From positions 15,298 to 76,787 of the forward strand of contig NZ_KB903554.1 in NCBI RefSeq assembly GCF_000379805.1: a stretch of 61,490 nt of DNA, given 5' to 3'. The stretch's first letter is position 1; each line of letters opens with the position of its first letter. Below the pieces are notes generated by a model, which was given only the letters and a program-made list of their open reading frames with translations, had not been told where the DNA came from and did not search any database. The DNA is from Lewinella cohaerens DSM 23179. GTDB taxonomy: Bacteria > Bacteroidota > Bacteroidia > Chitinophagales > Saprospiraceae. Shown here piece after piece: positions 3,743-27,522 of the stretch. A program made the position numbers and the translations under genes.

Positions 3743-4444
3743 TTAAAATCTACGTCCGAAGTGCAATGAGCGGATGTGTAGCGTGGCTGCATTGTAGTTA
3801 GTCAGTACAGTGTACTGGAGGTTTAAGTACCAACCAGATCGTTTTGTCTCTTTACGGAATCGCCCTATTCCAACAGCCACAGACGGTGCGTAGTAGCTTC
3901 TGCCAGGAAACGAAACCTTCGTTACATCTTCACCTTCTACGTGGTAGGTTGTGGGTAGTACTGAACGGTAAAGGCCCAATGGGTTTAGTTCTACGGAAAG
4001 TTCTCTGCTTTTAGTGTTGACCCTGCGGAAAGTGAAGCCCGAATAGGCGAATATTCCATTCTGAGTTTGGGTAGCAAAATTAGTAGAGTAACCCAGGCTT
4101 CCGTTCAACAACAATTGGTGCTTAATCGTTTTTTGCTGATCCCTTCTCTCTCTTATCTTGACATTCTCTTTCCAGAGGTATTCCGCACCGAGGTTGATAC
4201 CTTGGTTGGCGGATATGTTGCCAAAGTACCCCACTTTAAAATCGGTTCTTTCTCGGAAAGAGGAACATTCGGTTGCGTGTTGAGCCGAAAGTTTAACGGT
4301 AAGTAATAGTAGGATAACCGCAAGGTAGGTTTTAGGTAAAGCTAAACGTAGTAAATAGTTTACGCTTAGTTTTTTCTGCCCTCGTTCTATAGTAATAAGA
4401 GAATAATGGATTAAAAATCTTAAAAGACTTTTTGTTAAATTCAT
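3743..4444 (-). CDS. Hypothetical protein, probable outer-membrane beta-barrel
   Basis: The 233-residue product has a hydrophobic segment (TYLAVILLLLTVKLSAQ, about residues 39-55) that looks like a signal peptide, which suggests the N-terminal 30 or so residues may not be used. No ATG, GTG or TTG start just before this segment was clear, so I keep the long form. After it come alternating polar and hydrophobic strands (GYFGNISANQGINLGAEYLW, GSLGYSTNF, YLNLQYTVLTNY), and the last residue is Phe, the usual barrel C-terminus. No family name is recognised. It lies between the hydrolase and a regulator gene on the same strand. Confidence 0.6.
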   Translation of the reverse strand: MNLTKSLLRFLIHYSLITIERGQKKLSVNYLLRLALPKTYLAVILLLLTVKLSAQHATECSSFRERTDFKVGYFGNISANQGINLGAEYLWKENVKIRERRDQQKTIKHQLLLNGSLGYSTNFATQTQNGIFAYSGFTFRRVNTKSRELSVELNPLGLYRSVLPTTYHVEGEDVTKVSFPGRSYYAPSVAVGIGRFRKETKRSGWYLNLQYTVLTNYNAATLHIRSLHFGRRF

Positions 4445-4529
4445 GATTTCATTTGATTGTTTCTATGGCAATAGTAGGCGAAATGCTACTGCCAGGAGTT
4501 CCGAAACCTTGAATTTCAATAAATCCGAA

Positions 4530-5690
4530 CTACTTGTGTGTTTTTCGGTACACATTTGGAGTCATTCCCGTTATTTTTTTGAAAGCTGTATGAAAAGTGG
4601 TTTTTGAAGAGAACCCTGCTTCTAGCCCTATTGCCAGTAAACTGTAGTTGCTAAACTCAGCGTCAGCGATCATTAATTTAACGGATTCAACTCGGTAGCG
4701 ATTAATATAGGTCGAAAAATTGTCCCCCGTAATGGTGTTGACGATTTGAGAAACATAACCTGGACTTATCCCTAATATTTCAGCTACTTGCACTCTATCC
4801 AGCGTATTGTCGAGGTAGATCCGTTCATTGGTACAAAGCGCTTCTAATTTTTTGAAATATGAATTTTCGGCGGTTAAAGATACTGTTCGTTTTTCATCAC
4901 CTACCGAATCCTGTGGAGGCAAGGGGATGGCTGGCTTAACCGAACCTGACTTCCACTTCTTGACCAAAGCCCTGATTTCTTCCTGGTCTTTGGATAACCT
5001 GAACTTAAAAATACCGACGTAGGTTATCCAGTGAATCAGAAAGGCAGCACCTAGCGCAATTGTTCTTAGCACCGAAGCAAATTCGATGAAGGAAAACATG
5101 GCTAAGACCATGGATGAGACATAGGAAGTCATGAGCACAGCAACCCAGAACCAAAGCTGGGTTAGCCATCGTTTTTCTCGTCGGCCATCGGCGTACTTGA
5201 TGAAGGTGTAGGCGTATATTAAAACAGATGGAATGAATACAAGTATTAGCAGAAATAGAAGCCCTCCGGTGATGTCGAAAAAAACTTGAATTATCGGAGA
5301 ATCGATAACAGCATCCAGCCCGCTATGGAGAATCCATAATAAATGTGGAACAAATAGCCACCACCTTTGGGGAGAATTCCGAAACGGATGATCTACTTGG
5401 TTGACGATGAACAGCAATATTAGCACAGGAAACAGCGCTCCTGAACTAAAAATGTCGATGATACGCAATGATAAGCTTTGTTCGTAAGATTCAGTGAGCT
5501 CTAAACCTAGGATAAGCAACGAAAAGGAAAGTCCAATTACGGCGTAGGCCAAATATTTATTAGCGGCGCTCTTGAAAATGGGTGACCTCAGAATAATCAC
5601 TCCCAACAAGATTCCCAGAAAAATAGCAATATTAAAAAGGGCTGATAGTAGTGACACTGTTGTGAGTTTTAAGTGAAGCAGTATGGGCAA
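4530..5690 (-). CDS. Membrane-bound AraC-family transcriptional regulator
   Basis: The N-terminal half (about 1-225) contains six or seven hydrophobic helices, and the last 100 residues are an AraC/XylS DNA-binding domain with two helix-turn-helix motifs (VAEILGISPGYVSQIVN and LLAIGLEAGFSSKTTFHTAFKKITGMTPNVYR). This design, a multi-helix sensor fused to AraC HTH, is common in Bacteroidota. The ligand is unknown. A short charged and proline-containing linker (about 240-285) joins the halves. The neighbouring hydrolase and barrel genes downstream on the same strand could be its targets, which is only a guess from position. Confidence 0.85.
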   Translation of the reverse strand: MPILLHLKLTTVSLLSALFNIAIFLGILLGVIILRSPIFKSAANKYLAYAVIGLSFSLLILGLELTESYEQSLSLRIIDIFSSGALFPVLILLFIVNQVDHPFRNSPQRWWLFVPHLLWILHSGLDAVIDSPIIQVFFDITGGLLFLLILVFIPSVLIYAYTFIKYADGRREKRWLTQLWFWVAVLMTSYVSSMVLAMFSFIEFASVLRTIALGAAFLIHWITYVGIFKFRLSKDQEEIRALVKKWKSGSVKPAIPLPPQDSVGDEKRTVSLTAENSYFKKLEALCTNERIYLDNTLDRVQVAEILGISPGYVSQIVNTITGDNFSTYINRYRVESVKLMIADAEFSNYSLLAIGLEAGFSSKTTFHTAFKKITGMTPNVYRKTHK

Positions 5691-8957: not shown

Positions 8958-11763
8958 TAGTCTTGTACTGCTTGTATGCTGTGGGGTTTTGTCTGTATTG
9001 AACGGGCAAAACCCTTCCAGCTATTGGCAACAAGAGCTCCTTGTTGACAGCGCGATACAGCAGGGTGTTTTAGCCAATGGCCTCTGCTATTTTATCCGCC
9101 CAAACAATGAGCCTCAGCAGCGAGCAGAACTACGACTGGTCATCAAAGCAGGCTCGCTGCAAGAAGAGGAAGACCAACTAGGCGTAGCCCACTTTGTAGA
9201 GCACATGGCCTTCAATGGTACGGAGAAATTTGCGCAAAACACGCTCATCGACTTTATCGAAAGAAATGGTTCTCGCTTTGGTGCAGACCTTAATGCTTAT
9301 ACTTCTTTTGCGGAAACCGTCTACCAGCTACAAGTGCAAACGGATAGCCTGGCACTGGTCGATACTGCGCTGCAAGTACTGTCAGAATGGAGTAGTAAAA
9401 TCACTTTCGATCCGGAAGAGGTAGACAAAGAGCGCGGGGTAATCATTTCCGAGTGGCGCAGCCGCTTGAGTTCCAACCAACGCTTACAAATGCAGGCTTA
9501 CCAAACTTTGCTGGCGGGATCACGTTATGCACAACGCTTACCTATTGGTAGCCCTGAGTTGATTGACACCGTTTCGGCACAGCGCTTAATTGACTTTTAC
9601 CAACGATGGTATCAGCCAGAAAACATGGCCCTCATTGTAGTCGGTGATGTTGATCCTGCTTGGATAACAACCAAGATTGAAGACTATTTTTCTGGATTGA
9701 GCAACGACGGCTTTCAGCCTGCGGAAAACTACCCACTAGATACCAATCAAGTTCAACGATTTCTCCTGGCCACCGATGACGAAGCGGCTTTTACGCGATG
9801 GGAGCTAACATTTCAGCTGGAACCACAGAAAAGCGACCTCACACGGGGAACCCTTAAATACCAGTTGCAACGCTCCCTATTTGGTAGCTTGATAAACAAA
9901 CGGCTGGCTAAACTCAAGGAAACAGCCATTCCTCCTTTTACTTTTGCCTATTCTGGTTTTGCTTCTCTGCCAGGGAATTACCACAGTTATCGGCTGAGTG
10001 CTTTAGGGCCAGCAGAGCAACTTAATGAGGCGCTTTATACCGTTATGAATGAAACTCGTCGGGTAATTCTACATGGTTTTAGTGACGATGAGTTGGCTGT
10101 TGAAAAAAAGGCTATGCTTGACCAGTATGAACAGATGGTCAAAGAATTAGATAAAAGATCCAGCAGTAGTATTGCCGGCAGTATCAGAAACGCTTTTCTG
10201 GAAGATACCAAGATGGTAGACTTCAATGCACTCCCCTCTTTCGCGGCAGATTGTTTAGGAGAAATCACTTCTGCAGAGTTGCAAAGTTTAGCTCAAAAGG
10301 CACTGACTTCCGAAGTTCGTAATGCAATTATCACCACCAATTCGGAGCTGGCCCCTACCCTTCCTGACAGCACTGCGTTTTATCAATTATTAGATCAACT
10401 GCTTTTGCTTCAGCCGGAGGCTCCTGTTGCCCCCTCGCAGCAAGGCCCTCTCCTCAGTGAGCAGTTGCCTGCTCAAAAGGCTGTATTAGCCAGTTATGAC
10501 AGCGTTCTCCAGGTAAGTAGCTATGAGCTGCCCAATGGCGTAAAGGTGATACTTAAGCCTACGGATTTCAAAAATGATCAAATCAGATTTCGGGGCTTCA
10601 GCCCAGGTGGTATAAGTCTTTATGAAGACGAAGATTACCCGAGTGCCCGCCACGCCTTGTCTATCCTTGATCAATCCGGCTTGGATACTTTTCGCGAAAG
10701 CGAATTGTTACAATTGTTAAGTGATCAAAATGTGAGCGTCAATCCATATCTAGGGTCTTACGAAGAGGGTATCTCTGGCAGTAGCAATCAGGAGGACATT
10801 GAAACGATGTTCCAGCTGATTTACCTTTATTTTACCCGCCCTCGGTTTGATAGCCTCGCTTTAGCGGCTTATCAGAAGCGACAAATAGATATCTACGACC
10901 GATTGGATGAAGATCCGCGTACTGCCTTTGGCCGAATGGTCATAGACAAGAAATACGGCGACCATCCCCGGCGTCCCAACTTCTCCATTGAAGAGTTTGA
11001 GACGATCAACTTGGACCGTGCAGCAGCCATTTATTACGAACGCTTTGCCAATGCCGCAGATTTTAGTTTTGTTTTTGTGGGAAACTTCGCTCCCGACAGC
11101 TTAATGCAACTTGCGGCCCAATACTTAGGGAACTTACCTCTAACCAATCAAGCTACCGAGCAGTGGAAAGACCGTGGACTTCGGCTCAGCAACGCACCTT
11201 TGGATACCACCGTCATTGCCGGGCAAACGCCTAAAGCAGAAGTCATCTTGGAGTGGCACGGCGATTTCCCTTACAGTAACCGGGATACTCGTTTGCATTT
11301 CTCAGCCTTGCGGGAAATACTTTCTTTCCGTTTACGGGAAAAGCTACGCGAAGAAATGGGTGGCGTCTATGGTGTGAGAGTGAACATGAGAATGCAGTCT
11401 ATCCCCGATTCTTTACACCACACGACGATTCGCTTCAATGCCTCACCCGAAGAAGTAGATACGCTTATCGCAATGGTTTACGAAGAAATAGCCTCGCTTG
11501 CAGCGGGAAATACCCGCCAAAGTGACTTGGACAAAATAAAGGCCAGTAGACTGAAATCCTACGAAGAAGCTTTACGCAATAATGGATTCTGGCTGGGCCA
11601 AATAGCCCAATGCATCCGCATGAAATACGATCTTGAACGACTTTATCCCGATCGTTACAGGCAACGGCTAGATTCGATCGACGCCGATAAATTTGGTCCT
11701 ATTACTAAGCGGTATTTGATGAATGCTACCCATTTTAAGTTTGTATTGCTGCCGGAGGAGTAG
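8923..11763 (+). CDS. M16-family zinc protease (pitrilysin/insulinase type)
   Basis: The 946-residue product has a cleavable-looking signal (SSLVLLVCCGVLSVLNGQ) and two M16 half-units. The first half holds the inverted zinc motif HFVEH (His90, Glu93, His94), with the third ligand Glu at about 170 in DKERGVIISEWRSR. The second half (about 540-946) is the catalytically silent kind that closes the chamber and contains the REEMGGVYGVRV region typical of M16 C-terminal domains. The enzyme would degrade peptides in the periplasm. The start overlaps the TPR lipoprotein gene by 35 bases in another frame, a sign of translational coupling. The length fits the double-unit bacterial M16 group. Confidence 0.9.
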   Translation: MKKSSNNWRINSSLVLLVCCGVLSVLNGQNPSSYWQQELLVDSAIQQGVLANGLCYFIRPNNEPQQRAELRLVIKAGSLQEEEDQLGVAHFVEHMAFNGTEKFAQNTLIDFIERNGSRFGADLNAYTSFAETVYQLQVQTDSLALVDTALQVLSEWSSKITFDPEEVDKERGVIISEWRSRLSSNQRLQMQAYQTLLAGSRYAQRLPIGSPELIDTVSAQRLIDFYQRWYQPENMALIVVGDVDPAWITTKIEDYFSGLSNDGFQPAENYPLDTNQVQRFLLATDDEAAFTRWELTFQLEPQKSDLTRGTLKYQLQRSLFGSLINKRLAKLKETAIPPFTFAYSGFASLPGNYHSYRLSALGPAEQLNEALYTVMNETRRVILHGFSDDELAVEKKAMLDQYEQMVKELDKRSSSSIAGSIRNAFLEDTKMVDFNALPSFAADCLGEITSAELQSLAQKALTSEVRNAIITTNSELAPTLPDSTAFYQLLDQLLLLQPEAPVAPSQQGPLLSEQLPAQKAVLASYDSVLQVSSYELPNGVKVILKPTDFKNDQIRFRGFSPGGISLYEDEDYPSARHALSILDQSGLDTFRESELLQLLSDQNVSVNPYLGSYEEGISGSSNQEDIETMFQLIYLYFTRPRFDSLALAAYQKRQIDIYDRLDEDPRTAFGRMVIDKKYGDHPRRPNFSIEEFETINLDRAAAIYYERFANAADFSFVFVGNFAPDSLMQLAAQYLGNLPLTNQATEQWKDRGLRLSNAPLDTTVIAGQTPKAEVILEWHGDFPYSNRDTRLHFSALREILSFRLREKLREEMGGVYGVRVNMRMQSIPDSLHHTTIRFNASPEEVDTLIAMVYEEIASLAAGNTRQSDLDKIKASRLKSYEEALRNNGFWLGQIAQCIRMKYDLERLYPDRYRQRLDSIDADKFGPITKRYLMNATHFKFVLLPEE

Positions 11764-11805
11764 GGAGAAGGGGCTTACGAATTGGAGTTTTGGGGTGGTC
11801 TCGGC

Positions 11806-11828
11806 GTAGGTAAAACCAACGCCGAACA
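11806..11828 (+). repeat. Short hairpin after the M16 gene
   Basis: CGGCGT, a small loop with AGG/CC pairing, and ACGCCG form a stem 43 bases after the stop of the protease gene. There is no T-run after it, so it is not a typical intrinsic terminator. Confidence 0.35.
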
Positions 11829-11870
11829 GAGAGCAAGCTACCTCTAATACTGCTAAAGAAACCTTATCAG

Positions 11871-12302
11871 ATGAAAATAATTAAGTCTAAAACGGCCTAC
11901 ATCAATGTTGTTATCCTGGTAATATTCTTTTCTGTACTAGCTTTTTCTTTGTTAAAAGAAAAGCGAACTGTGAATTCTCTAAAAGAGAATTATGTAGTCA
12001 CAGTTGCGAGGGGTGTATCTAATGAAAAACCTGAAGGAAAATATTTGTCAAAACTGGAGATAGAGTATATGTATCGGCATAAAACATACAGAAACTACAC
12101 TCTTCCGTTCTATAGATCAATAAAGACCCCTGAACCAGGAGGTACGTGTATAGTTGCCTATGATAAGGATAATCCTAAAACTGTAGCTATAATAACAGGG
12201 GTCTTCCTAGACGAGTATAAATTTGGTGAAGAGCTAAATTCCATAATCGATACTACTCATCTAGAGTTCAATTGGCTAGGAACAGGATATTTAAGGAAAT
12301 AA
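11871..12302 (+). CDS. Hypothetical membrane-anchored protein
   Basis: The protein has 143 residues with one N-terminal hydrophobic helix (about 9-30), followed by a charged stretch and beta-rich segments (YVVTVARGV, LEIEYMYRHKTYRNYTL, GGTCIVAYDKDNPKTVAII). The layout, one or two helices and a small beta domain with a YDxxNPK-like motif, resembles DUF3592-type proteins, but I cannot name the family surely. The DNA is more AT-rich than the protease gene before it. The protein at 28850 has a comparable plan (helix, beta domain with a VGDVVDLEYSK motif). Confidence 0.5.
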   Translation: MKIIKSKTAYINVVILVIFFSVLAFSLLKEKRTVNSLKENYVVTVARGVSNEKPEGKYLSKLEIEYMYRHKTYRNYTLPFYRSIKTPEPGGTCIVAYDKDNPKTVAIITGVFLDEYKFGEELNSIIDTTHLEFNWLGTGYLRK

Positions 12303-12422
12303 TCCCCCCCACTAGCTAGCTATGCGACTTGTGCGTTAACATGGACATATAGCGTCCAGTGGGCACTGACGCAGTCCAGCTGAAGAATGCCTTCTACAAG
12401 CAGCCAGATTAAATCACTATTT

Positions 12423-15018: not shown

Positions 15019-17673
15019 TTATTCCTCCAACAACTTTTTCAGCTCATTGAGCTTCATCATACACTCGATGGGGGTCATGTTATTGATCTGCAAATCCAGC
15101 AATGTGGCCTTCAATTGCCCAGCTACCGGGTCAACGGTTTCGAAGATGCTCAACTGCATAGCCTCTGTACTGATCGATTCTGTAGCAGGGCGTGCAACTT
15201 TAGGTTCTCCCTTTGTTTCTACGTCTCCCTCAATATGCTTTTGCTCCAATTGGGTGAGGATCTGCGTAGCCCGATCTACGATAGAGTGAGGCATACCGGC
15301 CATTCTCGCAACATGAATACCGAAGCTATGGTGGCTACCTCCTTCAGCAAGTTTACGCAAAAAGATGACCTTTTTGCCCAATTCTTTCACCGAAACATTG
15401 AAATTCTTGATTCGGGGAAATTTTGTTGCCAGCTCGTTCAGTTCGTGATAATGCGTAGCAAAGAGCGTCTTGGGATAAGATTTTCCATTGCTGTGAAGGT
15501 ACTCCGCAATCGACCAAGCAATACTGATTCCGTCATAAGTACTGGTACCTCGCCCAATTTCATCCAACAGGATGAGCGAACGATCCGAGACATTATTCAT
15601 AATGCTGGCGGTCTCGTTCATCTCCACCATGAAGGTAGACTCGCCGCTGGAGATGTTGTCACTGGCTCCTACACGAGTGAAGACCTTATCCACTATGCCC
15701 AGTCGGGCGGCTTTCGCCGGAACAAAGCTTCCCATTTGGGCCATCAAACAAATCAGAGCAGTCTGCCGCAAGAGGGCTGATTTACCCGACATGTTAGGGC
15801 CTGTGATCATCATGATTTGTTGTTCGTCACGATCCAGAAAAACATCATTGGGAACATACGCTTCGCCTAGCGGCAAGTGCTTCTCGATCACAGGGTGGCG
15901 CCCTTCCTTAATATCAATCACGAAGCTATCGTCTATCTGCGGTCGTACGTAATAATTTTTCACCGCGACCTTACTAAAAGAGAGCAAGCAATCCAAGCGG
16001 GCAATCAGGGCAGCGTTGCGTTGCACTTGTGGAATAAAGTCTGCCAATCTAAGTACCAGCTGCTCGAAAAGGGAAGCCTCCAAGACCAAAACCTTCTCCT
16101 CAGCGCCTAGTATTTTATCTTCCAGAACCTTTAGCTCCTCTGTGATATATCGCTCTGCATTCGTTAGCGTTTGTTTGCGAGTCCACTCCTCTGGAACATC
16201 ATTTTTAAATCTATTCGTGACCTCCAAGTAATAACCGAAGACATTGTTAAACCCAATTTTAAGGCTTGATATCCCAGTACGTTCTACTTCGCGGTTTTTG
16301 ATTTCCACAAGGCGATTACGCCCATTCTTCATGATATCCCGAAGATCATCAAGTTCTTCCGACCAACCATCAGCGATGACGCCACCTTTTGAAAGATTGA
16401 CCGGGGGGGGGTCTTCTTTGATTTGTTTACCAATCTCCTGGCACAAGGTTTCGCAAGGGTCTAGGCCATCGGCTATCTTCTGCAACATCTCCTCTTTGGT
16501 TCCTGCAAGGGAAGCCGCTATCAGTGGAATTGTTTCAAGTGACCTCTTCAGGGATGTTATCTCCCTTGGGTTGATTTTTCCTAATGGAACTTTAGCAATC
16601 AAGCGCTCCAAATCTCCCATCTGGCGGATATAACCACTCAACTCTTCTACCTGCTCTGCTGACTGCACAAAATGATCAACCACCTGCAAGCGAGCCTCAA
16701 TATCATTAACATCCTTGAGTGGTAGTACGACCCATTTCTTCAGCAACCTCCCTCCCATCGGAGAAACGGTATGATCCAGGATATTGATCAACGGCACACC
16801 ACTTTCATGCGGACTATAAATCAATTCAAGGTTACGAATCGTAAAGCGATCCAGCCACACATAAAGATCAGGCTGTATGCGGCCAATCGTATTAAGGTGC
16901 TGGATATTTTTATTCTCGGTCGTTTCCAGGTAGTGCAAAATAGCACCTGCCGCTACTTGCGACAACTCCATTTCCTCTACCCCAAAGCCTTTGAGTGATT
17001 GTATCTCAAAGTGGTGGAGCAATTTCTCTCTGGTATAATCCAATGAATACACCCATTCATCGAGCGAGAAGACATGAAAACGTTCTCCAAAACGTTCTTC
17101 AAAACCTTTCTTCTTGTCTTTAGAGAGGATCACTTCCGAAGGGCGGAAACTTTGCAACAGCTTATCAATGTATTCCTGGTTGCCTTCACAGACTAAAAAC
17201 TCGCCGGTGGATATGTCTAGCAAAGCCAGCCCCATCTGCTGCTGCTTGCCAAAATACAAGCTCGCCAAAAAGTTATTGGTCTTATGGTCCAACAGCTTAT
17301 CATCAATGGCCAGTCCTGGCGTAACGATCTCGGTAACTCCTCGCCGAACAATCTTCTTCTCTTTCGAAGGTTTCTCCAGCTGCTCGCAAATAGCTACCCG
17401 ATGGCCAGCCCTGATCAATCGGGGCAGGTAAGTATCTAAAGAATGGTAGGGAAAACCAGCCAACTCGACATCACTGCCGCCATTGTTTCTGCTTGTCAAG
17501 ACAATGCCTAACACCTGAGCGGCAACAACGGCATCTTCTCCAAACGTTTCGTAGAAATCACCTACTCGAAAAAGCAAGATAGCCGAAGGGTGTTTGGCTT
17601 TTACGGTAAAATACTGCTTCATCAAAGGAGTTACCTTCGTAGATTTCTTTTTTGCTTTTGCTTTTCCGGCCAA
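15019..17673 (-). CDS. mutS: DNA mismatch repair protein MutS
   Basis: The full-length protein has 884 residues. The N-terminal mismatch-recognition domain has GDFYETF, with the Phe-x-Glu that stacks on the mispair. Connector, lever and clamp domains follow, and the C-terminal ABC ATPase carries the Walker A motif GPNMSGKSALLRQ (about residue 625), Walker B LILLDEIGRGTSTYDG and the switch His in ATHYHEL. The tail (MTPIECMMKLNELKKLL) matches the usual MutS C-terminus. It recognises mispairs and small loops and recruits MutL, which is not in this window. A good promoter lies at 17700-17729, 27 bases upstream. Confidence 0.97.
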   Translation of the reverse strand: MAGKAKAKKKSTKVTPLMKQYFTVKAKHPSAILLFRVGDFYETFGEDAVVAAQVLGIVLTSRNNGGSDVELAGFPYHSLDTYLPRLIRAGHRVAICEQLEKPSKEKKIVRRGVTEIVTPGLAIDDKLLDHKTNNFLASLYFGKQQQMGLALLDISTGEFLVCEGNQEYIDKLLQSFRPSEVILSKDKKKGFEERFGERFHVFSLDEWVYSLDYTREKLLHHFEIQSLKGFGVEEMELSQVAAGAILHYLETTENKNIQHLNTIGRIQPDLYVWLDRFTIRNLELIYSPHESGVPLINILDHTVSPMGGRLLKKWVVLPLKDVNDIEARLQVVDHFVQSAEQVEELSGYIRQMGDLERLIAKVPLGKINPREITSLKRSLETIPLIAASLAGTKEEMLQKIADGLDPCETLCQEIGKQIKEDPPPVNLSKGGVIADGWSEELDDLRDIMKNGRNRLVEIKNREVERTGISSLKIGFNNVFGYYLEVTNRFKNDVPEEWTRKQTLTNAERYITEELKVLEDKILGAEEKVLVLEASLFEQLVLRLADFIPQVQRNAALIARLDCLLSFSKVAVKNYYVRPQIDDSFVIDIKEGRHPVIEKHLPLGEAYVPNDVFLDRDEQQIMMITGPNMSGKSALLRQTALICLMAQMGSFVPAKAARLGIVDKVFTRVGASDNISSGESTFMVEMNETASIMNNVSDRSLILLDEIGRGTSTYDGISIAWSIAEYLHSNGKSYPKTLFATHYHELNELATKFPRIKNFNVSVKELGKKVIFLRKLAEGGSHHSFGIHVARMAGMPHSIVDRATQILTQLEQKHIEGDVETKGEPKVARPATESISTEAMQLSIFETVDPVAGQLKATLLDLQINNMTPIECMMKLNELKKLLEE

Positions 17674-19395: not shown

Positions 19396-20124
19396 TTATA
19401 GCTCTCTGATCCAGATATTGCGAAAACTCACGGGGTTGCTATGGTCTTGGAGTTTAATCGGGCCTGGGCCATGTGGTTCGTTTTGAGGCAAACCAATGTA
19501 GGGTGTTGTTCCTTTGATCTCTACGTGGTTTTGCACCAAAACACCGTTGATCAAGACCGTGATGTAGCCAGAGGCCACCTTCATTCCATCATCATTAAAC
19601 TGGGGAGCCTTAAAGATAATATCATAAGTATTCCATTCGCCGGTAGGCCGAAGTGGGTTCACCAACGGAATATGCTGCTTGTAAATAGCGCCAGCCTGGC
19701 CATTAGAGTAGGTTCGGTTCTGATAGCTATCTAAGATCTGAACTTCGTAGATTCCCTGGAGGAAGACGCCACTATTGCCACGTCCCTGTCCCTCGCCTTC
19801 AATCACAAGAGGAGACCTCCACTCCAGATGAAGTTGGCAGTCGCCGAATACTTTTTTGGTTTGAATATCGCCCGTCCCCTTCTCAACAGTTAGATGCTTA
19901 CCTTCTTGTTTCCAGCCAACGGCTTTGCCGTTGAGGTGTTCCCATTGATCAGTATTGGTACCATCAAAAAGGATATATGCATCTGCTGGCGGGCCATTTA
20001 CAGGGCCAGGGTCAACTGCGCGGGGCTCTGGCTCCCAAACTTCGGTAGCTACAGGGTCTGTAATCTGTGCCCGTAAGAAAGAGCCTGTCAGAAAAAGGAA
20101 AAGCAAGAAGAAAAGTGGTCTCAT
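19396..20124 (-). CDS. DUF1080 (3-keto-disaccharide hydrolase-like) secreted protein
   Basis: A signal peptide (FFLLFLFLTGSFLRAQ) is followed by a concanavalin-like sandwich of the DUF1080 family: AYILFDGTNTDQWEHLNG, a lysine-rich edge, HLEWRSP, GNSGVFLQGIYEVQILDSY, GAIYKQHIPLVNPLRPTGEWNTYDIIFKAP, and the C-terminal GPIKLQDHSNPVSFRNIWIREL. The family acts on or binds sugars outside the cytoplasm and is now partly annotated as 3-keto-disaccharide hydrolase; activity here is unproved. It lies 69 bases after the creatininase gene on the same strand and may be the last gene of that transcript. Confidence 0.85.
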   Translation of the reverse strand: MRPLFFLLFLFLTGSFLRAQITDPVATEVWEPEPRAVDPGPVNGPPADAYILFDGTNTDQWEHLNGKAVGWKQEGKHLTVEKGTGDIQTKKVFGDCQLHLEWRSPLVIEGEGQGRGNSGVFLQGIYEVQILDSYQNRTYSNGQAGAIYKQHIPLVNPLRPTGEWNTYDIIFKAPQFNDDGMKVASGYITVLINGVLVQNHVEIKGTTPYIGLPQNEPHGPGPIKLQDHSNPVSFRNIWIREL

Positions 20125-20193: not shown

Positions 20194-20988
20194 TTAATGA
20201 CGCGACTGATAAAGCTTCTCAAGTGGCGTCTTCTTCACGAAGTCGACAAATTTCACCAATTGGTGAATCATAATTTCCCACATTTTCACCCCCTTTTCTG
20301 CGGTTGCAATTGTGGCATCTCCCATTACGCCAGAGTTGGAAATCTTGTTGGTACGAACATACCAACTTACGCTGTGGTCATCATCAAAATTCAAAAAGTC
20401 GCTACCGAAGTCAAGCGTTTCATTTACGGCCTTATCCATCTGTACGGCTTCAGGACGTAAGGCCAGGGTTGTACTGGTCTCAATCTCACCGGCGTGGATA
20501 TCATTTGGCGTACTTGCCAATTTCGCGATATCTGTATCGCTCGTGTCGCCAGTATCCACACAAACAAAGATGCGAGCGTCCCGATTGATCATCTGGGCCG
20601 CATAATTCAGCGTAGGAGCATTGTCGCCATGTCCATTGATCATAATAATCTTCTTCACACCCTGCTTGGCCAAGTTCATACCAATATCATACACAAAAGC
20701 AGACAAAGCGTTATTCGTAACACTGATAGTACCAGCAAAATCCTCATGGTGATAAGAAACACCGTAAGGGATAGCAGGCAGCACAAGTGGCTTTGGATCA
20801 GAGCACATTTCTGCTACCTTACGAGCCAAGTATTTGGCATCATAATAATCAATATCCACCGGCAAATGCGGGCCGTGTTGTTCGATAGCACCACAGGGCA
20901 GCAAAACCGTATCGACGGTTTCCAGGCGTTCGTTGATTTCCTCCCAGGTCATCTCTTCCCAGAGAAAACCCTTTTTATTTCTGTTCAT
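20194..20988 (-). CDS. Creatininase-family amidohydrolase
   Basis: The 264-residue protein shows the metal site of the creatininase family: LPCGAIEQHGPHLPVDIDYYDA (Glu36, His38, Asp), the MINGHGDNAPTL helix start and HAGEIETSTTLALRPEAV with His and Glu ligands near 173. The family holds creatinine amidohydrolase, the mycofactocin peptidase MftE and hydrolases of riboflavin and bacillithiol-type routes, so the substrate is open. It overlaps the ATP-PPase gene by 14 bases and follows the PLP enzyme, so it very likely acts in the same pathway, for example by opening or trimming an amide made by the ATP-dependent enzyme. Confidence 0.85.
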   Translation of the reverse strand: MNRNKKGFLWEEMTWEEINERLETVDTVLLPCGAIEQHGPHLPVDIDYYDAKYLARKVAEMCSDPKPLVLPAIPYGVSYHHEDFAGTISVTNNALSAFVYDIGMNLAKQGVKKIIMINGHGDNAPTLNYAAQMINRDARIFVCVDTGDTSDTDIAKLASTPNDIHAGEIETSTTLALRPEAVQMDKAVNETLDFGSDFLNFDDDHSVSWYVRTNKISNSGVMGDATIATAEKGVKMWEIMIHQLVKFVDFVKKTPLEKLYQSRH

Positions 20989-22510
20989 TGCTTCTTGTAA
21001 ATTTGTAAGGCTTGTTTTCGGCCAATAAGTCCACCACGGATGTTGTATCCCATTTGTGGTGATTACGGCGTACTACTCCTTCCGAATACTCATTAAATAG
21101 TGATAAAAGTTGTTCCCGGATATTCTCCGGCATATCCTGCAAATTGCTGCGCTCCTCATCAAAACGAAGTTGCATGATTTCAGGGTTCTTTTTAGCCAGC
21201 TTACGGGTATGAGGATTATCCTCAATTAACTCTTTTTCTAATAAAAGATGATATAATTGTTGGGCATCAGAGCCCAGTTGTTTAACACTTTTCCCTTCCA
21301 AAGCCTTGAGACATTGGATGATTTGGTCTTCGCTGTAGCCGCAGCGTGCCGGATCTTCTTCTAGTGCTTTGAGCATTCCTACAATACGGCGGCATTTCTC
21401 ACATTTGCCACAAGGCATCATCCGCTCCCCTTTTTTATGGGCAGCATGGCAAGAAACTTGAAGACTTTGCAAATCAGGGTAACGTTTTACCAAGATTTTT
21501 AAAATCAAAAGTTCGGAAAGCGACCTTAGAATAGAAAACTGGAAAAAATCCCAACCTTTTTTATCGTAGTAACGTGTAAGTGCATTGTCGAAATATTTGC
21601 TCTGATCGTACAGCGCAGCATAATGCGTGATTCCATCCTGCTGCAACTGCAGTGTGGTATCATACTCGTTACCGATAATGATATTTCTCACCTTACGCTT
21701 CCGCGCCAAAGGAAGTACACCAAACAAGAAAACAGAAACCGTCCACAGTCGAATGGGATAAATATCGGCGCGAATATTTTGGTAATTCTCCCGGATAAAA
21801 GGCATCTGACGAACCATCCAATTGAAAATACGGTCACAGTTGCACCACACCCGACTGGTGTTGGGCGCTATCTCCAGCATCTTGTGGTAAGCATTATAGG
21901 CAGTATACCAGTGCCTACCGGATTCATTTACATAGATAGGGTGTGCTGTCTGTAACTCATTTAGGATCCCATAACTCAGTAAACTATCCTTGCCACCACT
22001 GCTAAGAATGATATAGGCATCATTGTCCAATTCAGCGGAAGCACCTGTTTCATCCTGAACAGTCTTGGGTGCTGATTCTCCTTGAAAGGTCAACTTAGCA
22101 GCCGTGTACTTACTCTTCTTTTCAGGCGCTAAATCGCTGAATGCTGGCCGCAAAAACTCATTATTTGCCAGCAGCTTATGCACGTATACCTCGCGCGATG
22201 TATTCTCCGTTACTGCCCGCAAGAAAGATTGGTCTTTTTCATCAAAAGCACCTTCAAAAATGATCTCCTCACAGAACAAGCCATAATTTAAAGCAACCTG
22301 TGCGGCCATGGTAGAGGCCAGATTCCGATCCTCCCAACGCTTAGGGTCAAAAACCTTTTCAGTATAAGCATAGATGAGTGTATTCGACACGGTTTCACCA
22401 TCTTTCTTACCCAAAGTATAGGTGGCTTTCATTCGTTTAGGCTCTACCACAATCTCATGTACCTTGAGGTAGTCAAATACGATAAAATTTGACAATTTGA
22501 TTGACATCAA
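20975..22510 (-). CDS. PP-loop ATP-pyrophosphatase with Cys-rich tail, function unknown
   Basis: The protein has 511 residues. An N-terminal domain of about 160 residues without a recognised family leads to the PP-loop SGGKDS at 171-176, which marks ATP pyrophosphatases (QueC, asparagine synthase, tRNA thiolases). The later half contains GNEYD and a metal-type cluster, CHAAHKKGERMMPCGKCEKCRR (about 365-386), like the zinc site of QueC. It is about twice the length of QueC, so it is not the ordinary queuosine enzyme. These enzymes adenylate a carboxylate or carbonyl and replace AMP by a nitrogen or sulphur donor. Overlap with the creatininase gene and a 29-base gap to the PLP-enzyme gene indicate an operon. 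Confidence 0.75.
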   Translation of the reverse strand: MMSIKLSNFIVFDYLKVHEIVVEPKRMKATYTLGKKDGETVSNTLIYAYTEKVFDPKRWEDRNLASTMAAQVALNYGLFCEEIIFEGAFDEKDQSFLRAVTENTSREVYVHKLLANNEFLRPAFSDLAPEKKSKYTAAKLTFQGESAPKTVQDETGASAELDNDAYIILSSGGKDSLLSYGILNELQTAHPIYVNESGRHWYTAYNAYHKMLEIAPNTSRVWCNCDRIFNWMVRQMPFIRENYQNIRADIYPIRLWTVSVFLFGVLPLARKRKVRNIIIGNEYDTTLQLQQDGITHYAALYDQSKYFDNALTRYYDKKGWDFFQFSILRSLSELLILKILVKRYPDLQSLQVSCHAAHKKGERMMPCGKCEKCRRIVGMLKALEEDPARCGYSEDQIIQCLKALEGKSVKQLGSDAQQLYHLLLEKELIEDNPHTRKLAKKNPEIMQLRFDEERSNLQDMPENIREQLLSLFNEYSEGVVRRNHHKWDTTSVVDLLAENKPYKFTRSNEQK

Positions 22511-22539
22511 CCCAGTTTTAAAAAACGCTAAATAAAAGA

Positions 22540-23607
22540 TTACTTGGAATTCTTAGCCGTTAGGATAGCAACGTAGCGGTCCGGCTCTATCTCATTTTTT
22601 TCATGTTCCTTCAGCAGTCCAATCAATCCTGCTGTAGAAGCAGGGAGTATACTTTTCGACTCCTTGTTAAGAAGGTATTTAGACATGCTTTTCATCTCCT
22701 GGTCACTTACATTGTGTGCACTTCCATTACTTTCTTTCATGGCATACAAGGCCTCTTCGCCATCAAAGCTGTGCCAGTTGATTAAAGGTTCGTTGAACTT
22801 TGTTTCTTTAATGAGATCAGGGTTTAAATCGGCGCAATAATCCAATCCTTTATTAAAGGAATAAACGATAGGGTTTTTCCGTACAGAAGAAGCGCCTAGC
22901 ATCTGCGGCACGCGGGATGTCTTGCCTCGCTTATAAAGAGAAACAAATCCACGATAAATTCCTGCCAGCAATGTCCCATTAGAAATTGGGACCGCACAAA
23001 TGCGGGGAGCATCGCGCAGCTGATCGTAAATCTCGAAAGCAATTTGGCTATAAGCCATAATCTGCAAAGGCGTATTCGCACCACCGGGATTGGCATCGTA
23101 CCAACCGTTGTCTTGTGCTAGTTTGCTGCTCTCTGTCACGCTGTCTTCATAGCTGCCACGCAGACGGAGAATCTCGCTACCTAAATCAACCATCTCTTCA
23201 ATCCTGGCAGTATGATAGGATTCAGGAATGAATATTTTGCACTCGATACCTGCCAAGTGCGCCGCCAAAGCAACTGCTGATCCATAATTCCCACAAGTAG
23301 CAAGGCTGATCGTATCGTATTCACGACGCAAAGCATCGTAAACCTGTGCAAAAGCAATACGGTCCTTTTGCGTTCCTGTTGGGTTATCGCCTTCTGTTTT
23401 AAGGTAAAGTTGGCGCAGATTATAGTCACGCTCCAGAGATTTGGCCCGCATCAGGCTGGTATCCCCTACTTCGATATTTATAATATCTTCGAAAACTTCC
23501 AGCCGGTCTATCAGACTGTTGTTTTTGTTCTTAACAAATTCACTGTACTCCTTTGCTTCTTTCGATACTTTGAGTTCAATGCTATTCGTAAGATCCCGTA
23601 AATTCAT
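22540..23607 (-). CDS. Fold-type II PLP enzyme, threonine synthase-like
   Basis: The 355-residue protein shows the tryptophan-synthase-beta fold. The PLP lysine is in EGDNPTGTQKDRIAFA (Lys81), the phosphate- and substrate-loop is TCGNYGSAVALAAHLAG, and ISNGTLLAGIYRGF is the glycine loop. It resembles threonine synthase but is shorter than the long type, has TQKDR where most have SFKDR, and sits with an ATP-PPase and a creatininase instead of thrA/thrB. It could therefore catalyse a beta- or gamma-replacement to make an unusual amino acid. First gene of the three-gene set, transcribed from upstream of 23607. Confidence 0.75.
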   Translation of the reverse strand: MNLRDLTNSIELKVSKEAKEYSEFVKNKNNSLIDRLEVFEDIINIEVGDTSLMRAKSLERDYNLRQLYLKTEGDNPTGTQKDRIAFAQVYDALRREYDTISLATCGNYGSAVALAAHLAGIECKIFIPESYHTARIEEMVDLGSEILRLRGSYEDSVTESSKLAQDNGWYDANPGGANTPLQIMAYSQIAFEIYDQLRDAPRICAVPISNGTLLAGIYRGFVSLYKRGKTSRVPQMLGASSVRKNPIVYSFNKGLDYCADLNPDLIKETKFNEPLINWHSFDGEEALYAMKESNGSAHNVSDQEMKSMSKYLLNKESKSILPASTAGLIGLLKEHEKNEIEPDRYVAILTAKNSK

Positions 23608-25140: not shown

Positions 25141-27522
25141 TTATAAATCTACTAATGTTACACCGTCACCACCAGCTTCCGCAGCGGGATGGTAAACCTC
25201 CATGGTGACATTATACTCACGGAGCTTCTTTTTAACGGCATCTCTGAGGGAACCATTGCCTTTTCCGTGGACTATTCTTAAATTGGAAACATCCGCCAAA
25301 AGTGCTTGATCTACAAAATCTTCTATCACCTTCATGGCCTCTACATAACGCATACCGCGAATATCAATTTTGCTATCAAAACGAGCGGCATAATCGATGT
25401 CAGAATGTACGCTCTGGGTGGTCTTTACGTCGAGGGGAGTTTTTGCTAACTGTAAATCACGCAGCTTTACCGTCATTCGCATCCCTCCCATTATCATGAT
25501 GGCATTCTTTCGATCAATGCTCTCTATTTCTCCGGTTGCACCGCCTGTTTTTAGTTTAACAAAATCACCTACGGCTAAGGGGCGATCTTCCAATAAGGCT
25601 TTGTCTGGATGATAGATTTCTTCTCGCAGGCCACCTACTTGTTCAGATAGGTTCTCTCGTTGATACTTGATTTCAAGTGATACCTTCTTTGCTTTATCCA
25701 GGTTCTTTTCTTCTTTCAACTCCCGGATCAGGCGCTCCAATTCTTTATTTTCCTGCGCACTTTGCTGCAACTCCTGCTCCTTGCGTTCAAGCTTATGCTT
25801 TTTGCGCTTGTATTCCAGATCACGATGCAGTTGATCGTAGGTCTTTGTGAGTCGATCTAACAACTTTTGCTTGTCAGTGAGTTCATTAAGCCTTTCTTCT
25901 ACTTCTTGCTTTTCTCGCTGTAAATCAACCAGTAAATCATCAACTGCTCGTTCATTACTACCAATTCGTTTGCGGGCATATTTCAAGACACGCCCCGGCA
26001 AACCACTCTTTCCTGCGATTTCAAAAGCGTAGGAGCTACCCGGTCGGCCTACTTGCAATTCATAACTCGGGGACAGATTATCCTTGTCAAAATGCATCGA
26101 GCCATTGACCAATCCTCGGGTTTTAAAAGCGAATACTTTTAGATTACTATAGTGAGTGGTAATGACTCCATAGATCTTACGGCGATTGAGCTCAAAAAGC
26201 ACAGATTCTGCAATAGCACCACCAATTTTGGGATCAGTACCAGAACCAAATTCATCAATCAACACCAAGGTATTCGGATTAGCGTGCTCCAAAAACACCT
26301 TGGCGTTTTCTAACCGTGAGCTGTAGGTCGATAGATCATTTTCTAACGATTGTTGATCACCAATATCTGCAAATAGCTGTTCAAAGACCGCCATTTCTGT
26401 TTGACCATCAACCGGCAAAAGCAGTCCACACTGGAACATTAACTGTAGCAAGCCAACGGACTTCATGGTAATCGACTTACCCCCTGCATTTGGCCCACTG
26501 AGCACGAGGATACGGTTTTGACCAAAAAGAGAAAGGTCGAAAGGAATGGTTTTACGCCCAAGCCCTTTGTTTTTCAAATATAGCAGTGGATGCCTTCCTT
26601 GAATAATAGCGAGGGTCGGTTCTTTTTTGGTGCGCGGACGAACAGCATTGAGTTTCAGTGCCAACTGGGCTTTGGTCTGCACGACATCAAAGCGGATGAT
26701 CAGATTCTGGTAGTCATGTAAGGAGGGTAAATACGGCCGCAGGGTAGCACTGAGTTCTTTAAGGATGCGATAAATCTCTCTTTTTTCTTCTTGCTGAAGG
26801 TCAAAAAGGTCATTATTGATATCAATAACGCCTTCCGGTTCAATGAATGCCGTACGCCCTGTGCTGGATTCATCATGGATAATACCTCTGATTTTCCTTT
26901 TGTGCTCCGAGGGCACACTCAGTACGCGGCGGGCATTACGAAAACTTTCTACGTTATCTGTAAGCCAGCCTTTCTTACGATAAGTATCAATAATGAGTCG
27001 GAATTGCCGGTCCATTTCCCGGTACTTGCTTTGAATGTGCCGGCGAATTTTCTGTAACTCAGCCGAAGCATCCGGTCGAATATTTCCCTCTTCATCGATC
27101 ACCCCTTCAATGGCATGTAATAGGTCTTCATTAAAATGAATGGGGCGGATAATATTGTAAAGCGTTTCATAAGCCTCCTGACGATCCTTATTGAAAAACT
27201 TGTAAATGTCTTTAATAAAAAGCAATAAGATATTCAGCTTTTGTAACCCATCTTCGGGGAGAACGAAGCCTGCTATTTCTAACATCCGCAACTCCTCATT
27301 GATCTCTTGATAAGCACCAATGGGAAAATTATCACGCTTCTCCAAGCTACGGCGAAATTCGTCTACCTCATCTAACCCTTGCTCAATACGAGCCAAATTA
27401 GACATGGGCTGAGTTGCCCGTATTTGTTCTTTGCCTTGTTCACCAAAACAAGATTCTTCCAACAAGGAAAGAATTTTATCAAACTCCAACTTCTCATATA
27501 AATCACCTGGTTCCAGTCGCAT
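25141..27522 (-). CDS. mutS2: Endonuclease MutS2
   Basis: The 793-residue protein lacks the MutS mismatch domain. It has the clamp and core helices, an ATPase with Walker A GPNAGGKSITMKSVG (about residue 340) and Walker B LVLIDEFGSGTDPKIGG, then a long coiled coil (about 520-630, rich in Glu and Lys). A small beta domain (GDFVKLKTGGATGEIESIDRKNAIM) follows, and a C-terminal Smr domain with DIRGMRYVEAMKVIEDFVDQAL and IVHGKGNGSLRDAV. The Smr motifs are intact. MutS2 acts on branched DNA and, in Bacillus, on collided ribosomes; which applies here is open. Confidence 0.96.
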   Translation of the reverse strand: MRLEPGDLYEKLEFDKILSLLEESCFGEQGKEQIRATQPMSNLARIEQGLDEVDEFRRSLEKRDNFPIGAYQEINEELRMLEIAGFVLPEDGLQKLNILLLFIKDIYKFFNKDRQEAYETLYNIIRPIHFNEDLLHAIEGVIDEEGNIRPDASAELQKIRRHIQSKYREMDRQFRLIIDTYRKKGWLTDNVESFRNARRVLSVPSEHKRKIRGIIHDESSTGRTAFIEPEGVIDINNDLFDLQQEEKREIYRILKELSATLRPYLPSLHDYQNLIIRFDVVQTKAQLALKLNAVRPRTKKEPTLAIIQGRHPLLYLKNKGLGRKTIPFDLSLFGQNRILVLSGPNAGGKSITMKSVGLLQLMFQCGLLLPVDGQTEMAVFEQLFADIGDQQSLENDLSTYSSRLENAKVFLEHANPNTLVLIDEFGSGTDPKIGGAIAESVLFELNRRKIYGVITTHYSNLKVFAFKTRGLVNGSMHFDKDNLSPSYELQVGRPGSSYAFEIAGKSGLPGRVLKYARKRIGSNERAVDDLLVDLQREKQEVEERLNELTDKQKLLDRLTKTYDQLHRDLEYKRKKHKLERKEQELQQSAQENKELERLIRELKEEKNLDKAKKVSLEIKYQRENLSEQVGGLREEIYHPDKALLEDRPLAVGDFVKLKTGGATGEIESIDRKNAIMIMGGMRMTVKLRDLQLAKTPLDVKTTQSVHSDIDYAARFDSKIDIRGMRYVEAMKVIEDFVDQALLADVSNLRIVHGKGNGSLRDAVKKKLREYNVTMEVYHPAAEAGGDGVTLVDL

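Follow-up and report, generated by a model that had tools for sequence, protein, structure and literature searches.

A cluster of three genes on the minus strand of a 61,490-nucleotide stretch of Lewinella cohaerens DSM 23179 DNA (contig NZ_KB903554.1, positions 15,298 to 76,787; the whole stretch is hereafter the window) encodes a fold-type-II pyridoxal 5′-phosphate enzyme (PLP), a QueC-like PP-loop ATP-pyrophosphatase (PPL) and a creatininase-family amidohydrolase (CRE), which elsewhere in the Bacteroidota are usually joined by a DgcN-like DUF1611 protein and a dipeptide-epimerase-like enzyme (EPI). We suggest that these genes represent a patchily distributed five-enzyme pathway which makes, and is able to break down, a small amide- or peptide-bonded amino acid metabolite, most likely to help the cell adapt to osmotic or ionic stress, its product being a charge-masked compatible solute; the probability of this reading is put at about 0.42. 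The gene set, its order and fusions, the predicted fold, the motifs, the taxonomic spread and the enrichment beside MscS, CorA and TerC genes were computed directly. The original prediction, made from the letters of the DNA alone, had placed three linked open reading frames on the minus strand, and both their positions (Table 1) and their spacing, a gap of 29 bases between PLP and PPL and an overlap of 14 bases between PPL and CRE, were confirmed. The PPL start may lie at the ATG one codon past the TTG, a minor correction which yields a 510 amino acid product.

PPL was sought in overlapping genome sets and was found in 7/100 relatives (the window genome counted), 11/395 genomes of the phylum, 11/397 genomes of a Flavobacteriaceae sample and 8/79 genomes of a third family. 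A peptide-pattern search of genome contigs (close relatives only) identified 14 PPL loci, with named hosts including Zeaxanthinibacter, Eudoraea, Croceitalea, Muriicola, Kordia, Allomuricauda, Lewinella and Flavilitoribacter, which we take to be marine groups. De-duplication (L062 = L011, L063 = L012, L072 = L017, L110 = L010, L113 = L013 and L116 = L009; L numbers denote loci and G numbers genomes) and the exclusion of G002, which has short flanks, and of small loci around matches left 34 distinct loci. No two of these have an identical PPL, and L015 and L021 share 95% DNA identity. Grouping by genus, with L009/L011/L112, L010/L015/L021, L013/L108, L012/L018 and L066/L067 each counted once, gives 27 lineages. 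The order PLP-DUF1611-PPL-CRE-EPI is found in 23 of the 34 loci, across four Bacteroidota families, while the window carries a reduced version comprising only PLP-PPL-CRE, with neither DUF1611 nor EPI in the operon. As the linkage of the three genes recurs in other genera and families, it is more than chance. The set of the original prediction is therefore real, its members being neighbours in other genomes as well; overlooked were the DUF1611 and dipeptide-epimerase-like proteins, which extend it to usually five genes, and the repeated ion- and osmotic-stress neighbours.

The remaining loci show various reduced or interrupted arrangements. EPI is not found alongside the other genes in L022, where the sequence stops 2.4 kb downstream, and L070; PPL-CRE stand by themselves in L016 and L017; L013 and L108 retain PPL-CRE-EPI, with PLP and DUF1611 located ~8 kb off in the former; L075 consists of PLP-DUF1611-PPL; and L015, L077 and L114 are interrupted by contig ends. 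A strong PLP match is present in 17/17 PPL genomes searched and CRE in 11/12. Furthermore, PPL and CRE form a single reading frame of 774-802 codons in 11/34 loci (L020, L065 to L071, L074, L114 and L115). In the ten unfused five-gene loci that were measured, CRE overlaps PPL by 4-20 bases, and at the other junctions the genes overlap by up to 4 bases or are as much as 91 bases apart. The fusion of a ligase with a hydrolase suggests that PPL and CRE share a substrate or product, an arrangement for which glutathionylspermidine synthetase, which we take to be a bifunctional synthetase/amidase, provides a precedent. One locus of family f37 (L064, genome G440) carries unfused PPL and CRE nearer the Flavobacteriaceae type, while the other seven operons found in f37 have the fusion and show greater divergence. 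The DUF1611 protein of L064 also clusters with those of the Flavobacteriaceae in the tree (support 97/96), and together these features suggest that the operon was transferred as a whole.

The window PPL protein has no Pfam match above the cut-off, no NCBIfam match at E-values up to 0.1 and no convincing relative in a phmmer search against the PDB (one match, E-value: 0.27), which supports the original prediction to the extent that none of the libraries searched assigns it to a family. The PP-loop SGGKDS and the cysteines C354, C367, C370 and C373 are invariant across 18 aligned PPL homologs, and the spacing of the latter, C(x)12CxxCxxC, is a variant of the QueC zinc motif C(x)8CxxCxxC, although the zinc site is putative. 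The predicted structure (mean predicted local distance difference test (pLDDT): 85.1; predicted template modelling (pTM) score: 0.87) yields no Foldseek match reaching an E-value of 1e-3; the best match in the PDB is Cap9 (9nto; E-value: 1.5e-3; template modelling (TM) score: 0.63 by target length), and most of the matches ranked behind it are also PP-loop ATPases. For the N-terminus, the structure prediction that had been proposed at the outset returned a β-β-β-α-β-α-β order (pLDDT: 89.1) resembling RNase-H-like folds, but no fold match at an E-value of 1e-3 or below. Its best matches, namely a designed fold, Argonaute PIWI, endonuclease V, UvrC and others (TM scores: 0.17-0.36 by query length), share at most an RNase-H-like topology with it, the Argonaute PIWI, endonuclease V and UvrC folds being, we presume, RNase-H-like.

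PPL resembles QueC, Cap9 and QatC in its SGGxDS PP-loop, C-xn-C-x2-C-x2-C site and Rossmann-type core, but differs in falling below the Pfam cut-off, in lacking the QueC substrate motifs and in being accompanied by metabolic partners. The QueC model PF06508 matches 4/18 PPL members weakly (best E-value: 0.0076, under the gathering cut-off) and does not match the window protein at E-values up to 1, while in an hhalign comparison with Escherichia coli QueC only the cysteine stretch aligns (22 columns; probability: 6.6%). The canonical motifs YxQxHxxE, VPxRN and YPDC, as given in a QueC-family survey (PMC13329287), are missing from the PPL alignment as judged by eye, with only P-x-R at residues 252-254 recalling VPxRN. 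PPL thus seems to be a QueC-type scaffold outside QueC and the known defence families by the tests run. Within the original proposal that an amino acid is activated and then amidated or thiolated, and an amide trimmed by the amidohydrolase, activation and amidation, with the amidohydrolase acting on an amide, agree with the QueC-like core and with the fusion of PPL to CRE. Thiolation is less likely, the cysteines being spaced as in the QueC zinc motif and not as in the LarE pattern described in the same survey (PMC13329287).

The QueC-type core, its N- and C-terminal extensions, shared with QatC (PMC13279940), and the Cap9 fold match would also suit a protein-modifying function in phage defence. 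However, PADLOC returned no match for the window protein and gave two weak hits among the 18 members, one member apiece (E-values: 0.018 and 0.029), and the conserved partners are metabolic enzymes. No Qat or CD-NTase partner was observed among the Pfam-scanned neighbours, no partner-by-partner search having been made. The predicted N-terminal topology differs too, a parallel four-stranded sheet being reported for QatC where PPL is predicted to have three meander strands followed by an α/β arrangement. A defence function is considered most improbable.

CRE is a clear member of the creatininase family (PF02633; Bitscore: 236.7, against a gathering cut-off of 31.3; E-value: 3.1e-70), with E36, H38, D47 and H120 invariant in 18 aligned sequences and D122 nearly so, residues which presumably represent the creatininase metal ligands, one of them with Asp where Glu would be expected. 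While it shares the fold and metal-site positions of creatininase, MftE and IolN, it falls below the equivalog cut-off of each (TIGR04448 creatininase: 120.3 of 235 bits; TIGR03964 MftE: 147.7 of 172 bits; also IolN), has Asp in place of Glu in the NGHxxN motif and, unlike them, is fused to an ATPase in the 11 loci noted above. One genome has lost CRE, which suggests that the enzyme acts in turnover or trimming and is not essential to the route.

PLP belongs to the PALP family (E-value: 4.8e-54) and matches the NCBIfam model PRK06381, 'threonine synthase' (Bitscore: 404.8; cut-off: 266), with Lys81 in the motif GTQKDR the likely cofactor-binding lysine. The NPxRxEGQ segment of threonine synthases, present in four PDB structures, is replaced, the window protein reading NTPLQIMAY in the alignment; we take this segment to contact the substrate phosphate through its Arg. 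Furthermore, a Thr_synth_N protein is encoded elsewhere in 14/17 PPL genomes, including the window genome (G000). Both observations make PLP an unlikely housekeeping threonine synthase in those genomes. Among the three genomes with no Thr_synth_N Pfam match (G030, G212 and G421), G212 and G421 carry a second threonine-synthase-like frame (27-29% identity) and G030 does not, so that the argument does not reach the last of these. PLP probably does not function as a threonine synthase, and the initial proposal that it makes an amino acid holds in outline only. In the congener G003, where neither PPL nor CRE was found, a PLP ortholog with 70% identity is present (L090:7043-8104), and PLP can thus stand alone.

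EPI aligns over its full length with the structure of the Bacillus subtilis L-Ala-D/L-Glu epimerase, and K160, K162, D189, E215, D240, K264, D317 and D319 are invariant in 19 aligned sequences. These we take to be the KxK pair, the D/E/D metal ligands, the second catalytic Lys (K264) and the DxD dipeptide motif, respectively, features which place EPI beside the dipeptide epimerases of the enolase superfamily. It differs from the L-Ala-D/L-Glu epimerases at position 24, where Glu occurs in 15/15 operon proteins aligned, as opposed to Lys/Arg in 4/4 paralogs and Arg in B. subtilis. If, as we assume, Arg/Lys at this position contacts the Glu side chain of the second dipeptide residue, EPI would have moved away from a Glu side chain at that residue, perhaps towards one that is cationic or neutral. 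In a scan confined to the EPI of L009, the protein falls short of each equivalog cut-off shown, coming closest with 255.3 of 500 bits.

The pairing of a DUF1611 protein with an enolase-superfamily epimerase recalls DgcN and DgcA, both among the NCBIfam matches of the L009 proteins. The operon might accordingly serve to break down or salvage peptides that contain D-amino acids, resembling D-glutamate use by DgcN/DgcA, in a route in which PPL would reactivate a fragment that CRE, a hydrolase, and PLP, which could be a lyase, would degrade; an ABC ATPase adjoins the L071 operon and an amino acid permease that of L067. The L009 proteins are, however, far below the cut-offs (DgcN, NF041892: 156.6 of 480 bits; DgcA: 151 of 400 bits), the operon has three further enzymes, ATP-pyrophosphatases are usually biosynthetic, and no peptidase was found among the ~30 neighbour proteins scanned, a part of all neighbours. 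The window genome moreover carries a second DUF1611/EPI set better fitting peptidoglycan (Table 1), located ~17 kb apart on another contig than the operon. This set was considered as displaced operon members and rejected, as it falls in a separate clade (support 100/100) common to G001 and G003, congeners without PPL that also carry both paralogs, and G058, which has PPL. The RodA and aminopeptidase P neighbours fit muropeptide use and suggest a role for the DUF1611 paralog in peptidoglycan recycling. We therefore regard salvage as unlikely. The DUF1611 and EPI steps may be lacking in the window genome, or these distant paralogs may carry them out.

An alternative cell-wall or peptide pathway, in which PPL would resemble MurL and adenylate the C-terminal carboxylate of a peptide for epimerisation at the α-carbon, is suggested by the conversion of ATP to AMP by MurL during epimerisation of a terminal Glu (PMC8788868). 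The operon already includes an epimerase-like enzyme, however, and its distribution is rare and accessory, making this alternative very unlikely.

The genes flanking the operon provide an indication of a physiological role. A MscS, CorA or TerC gene lies within 3 kb in 10/34 loci and 8/27 lineages (MscS at L019, L022, L066 and L111; CorA at L010, L014, L021 and L022; TerC at L022, L069 and L115, with a fragment at L067), and universal stress proteins (Usp) adjoin L019 and L020. From the background densities in 17 genomes (1.49 MscS, 0.27 CorA and 0.27 TerC genes per megabase), the chance of such a neighbour is 0.016 per locus, or 0.029 at the highest densities, and 0.5-1.0 would be expected in 34. 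The corresponding binomial P-values, from a test made only after the pattern had been noticed and with background from 17 genomes only, are 1e-10 to 3e-8 for loci and 8e-9 to 6e-7 for lineages. Neighbours were identified by BLAST with queries taken partly from these same loci, and loci rather than genes were counted because MscS, CorA and TerC cluster together. These genes also lie near one another away from the operon in several genomes (e.g. G000:C15, G448:C19 and G158:C81). The operon seems to join a pre-existing ion-stress cluster. The loci that do not have these genes show mixed neighbours, including DUF2807, MnmE, a histidine kinase, nitrilases, an ABC ATPase and Beta-lactamase2. TerC and CorA would also fit metal handling, and an epimerase forming D-residues together with a ligase is typical of antibiotic-like or metal-binding dipeptides, either of which the operon might produce instead of a solute. 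No recurrent exporter or receptor was, however, found in a partial scan of the neighbours, and MscS and Usp better fit osmotic stress, so that this product class appears rather unlikely.

In the compatible-solute pathway that we infer, from its substrates and reactions to the order of its steps and the osmolyte role itself, PLP would supply an unusual amino acid, and PPL, as a QueC-fold ligase, would activate a carboxylate with ATP, releasing AMP and pyrophosphate, and join it to an amine to yield a dipeptide or amide. EPI would invert the α-carbon at the second residue, DUF1611 would acylate an amine, masking its charge, and CRE would hydrolyse an amide bond in the same route for turnover, proofreading or deprotection. 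The invariant QueC-type motifs and the Cap9 fold match favour this pathway, Cap9 being described as a ligase acting on the N-terminus of a partner protein (PMC13329287, PMC11996544). N-carbamoylglutamine 1-amide and N-acetylglutaminylglutamine amide (NAGGN) are of the same product type, with both amine and carboxyl charges masked. The NAGGN biosynthesis genes presumably differ from this enzyme set. Uncharged amino acid and dipeptide osmolytes of this kind are a known class, which favours the compatible-solute reading, although the producers named in the available text of a 2005 review, which calls the enzymes unexplored, are not Bacteroidota (PMC1224877). A bolder version would make PPL-CRE the founding example of a new class of QueC-fold peptide or amide ligases that are frequently joined to their own hydrolases. 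With PLP, DUF1611 and EPI, it would produce a charge-neutral dipeptide osmolyte containing a D-residue in marine Bacteroidota; the fused pair would set the level of this solute and an adjoining MscS would release it upon dilution. As a whole, this version is improbable.

Several observations, in addition to the after-the-fact nature of the neighbour test, weigh against the osmotic or ionic stress pathway. The sequence similarity between PPL and QueC is very weak; the operon is rare, as the 11 of 397 Flavobacteriaceae genomes illustrate; and 24/34 loci, including the window, have no MscS, CorA or TerC gene within 3 kb, some having short flanks, while the L067 TerC is a fragment only, as identified by BLAST. 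The set is also not always tightly joined: in L016, L022 and L107 the stretches matching PPL lie 183-419 bases from those matching CRE, the PLP gene lies ~60 kb from PPL in the L017 genome, and no CRE was found at an E-value of 1e-8 or below in the L075 genome (G004), so that CRE may not be a needed step. Finally, dipeptide epimerases require a free N-terminus and carboxylate, which limits where acylation or amidation can fall.

Table 1. Locations of the operon genes, PPL motifs and related features (window positions, or locus and position for the paralogs)
Feature	Position	Strand	Size, basis or context
PLP, fold-type-II enzyme, threonine-synthase-like (NCBIfam PRK06381)	22540-23607	-	355 amino acids
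PPL, QueC-like PP-loop ATP-pyrophosphatase with extra N-terminal domain	20975-22510	-	511 amino acids
PPL N-terminal domain, residues 1 to ~160	22031-22510	-	structure models; weak fold matches
PP-loop SGGKDS, PPL residues 171-176	21983-22000	-	alignment
QueC-type putative zinc site of PPL, C354-x12-C367-x2-C370-x2-C373	21392-21451	-	alignment
CRE, creatininase-family amidohydrolase	20194-20988	-	264 amino acids; Pfam Creatininase
3keto-disac_hyd (DUF1080) gene	19396-20124	-	242 amino acids; Pfam
DUF1611 paralog of the window genome	L081:5837-8343		contig 5; adjoins RodA/FtsW gene
Dipeptide epimerase paralog of the window genome (Lys24)	L080:4516-6961		contig 5; adjoins aminopeptidase P

The gene located 69 bases beyond CRE, a member of the 3keto-disac_hyd family, presumably the current Pfam name of DUF1080, had been put forward as a further possible member. 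It adjoins CRE only in the window genome and its congener G002, and was rejected as part of the set. Two MutS-like frames flank the region ~7.5 kb apart (window 15019-17673 and 25141-27522, minus strand), one MutS-like and the other MutS2-like as judged by eye only. Elsewhere, a Beta-lactamase2-family serine hydrolase adjoins the operon in two genera (L013:8847-9764 and L019:14311-15201), and carbon-nitrogen hydrolase genes occur on either side of the L065 operon (3771-4595 and 10756-12315), one being a fusion with an acetyltransferase domain. Plasmid carriage was rejected, as a plasmid collection gave no match.

Within the open-licence literature, no paper on this gene set was found among the two that mention DUF1611 or those on compatible solutes, by title and start of abstract, and nothing relevant was found for creatininase in combination with epimerase, QueC or PP-loop. 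The accessible part of the 2026 QueC-family survey likewise makes no mention of creatininase or epimerase (PMC13329287). The best reading is that the pathway is undescribed. An ATP-pyrophosphatase family that has no Pfam or NCBIfam model, and is tied to up to four fixed partner enzymes, marks a pathway with a product that targeted metabolomics should be able to find. Were this product an osmolyte, the operon would supply enzymes for the uncharged amino acid and dipeptide solutes, the biosynthesis of which was called unexplored in the 2005 review, and would extend the QueC fold to amide-ligase chemistry beyond nucleobase, tRNA and defence biology.

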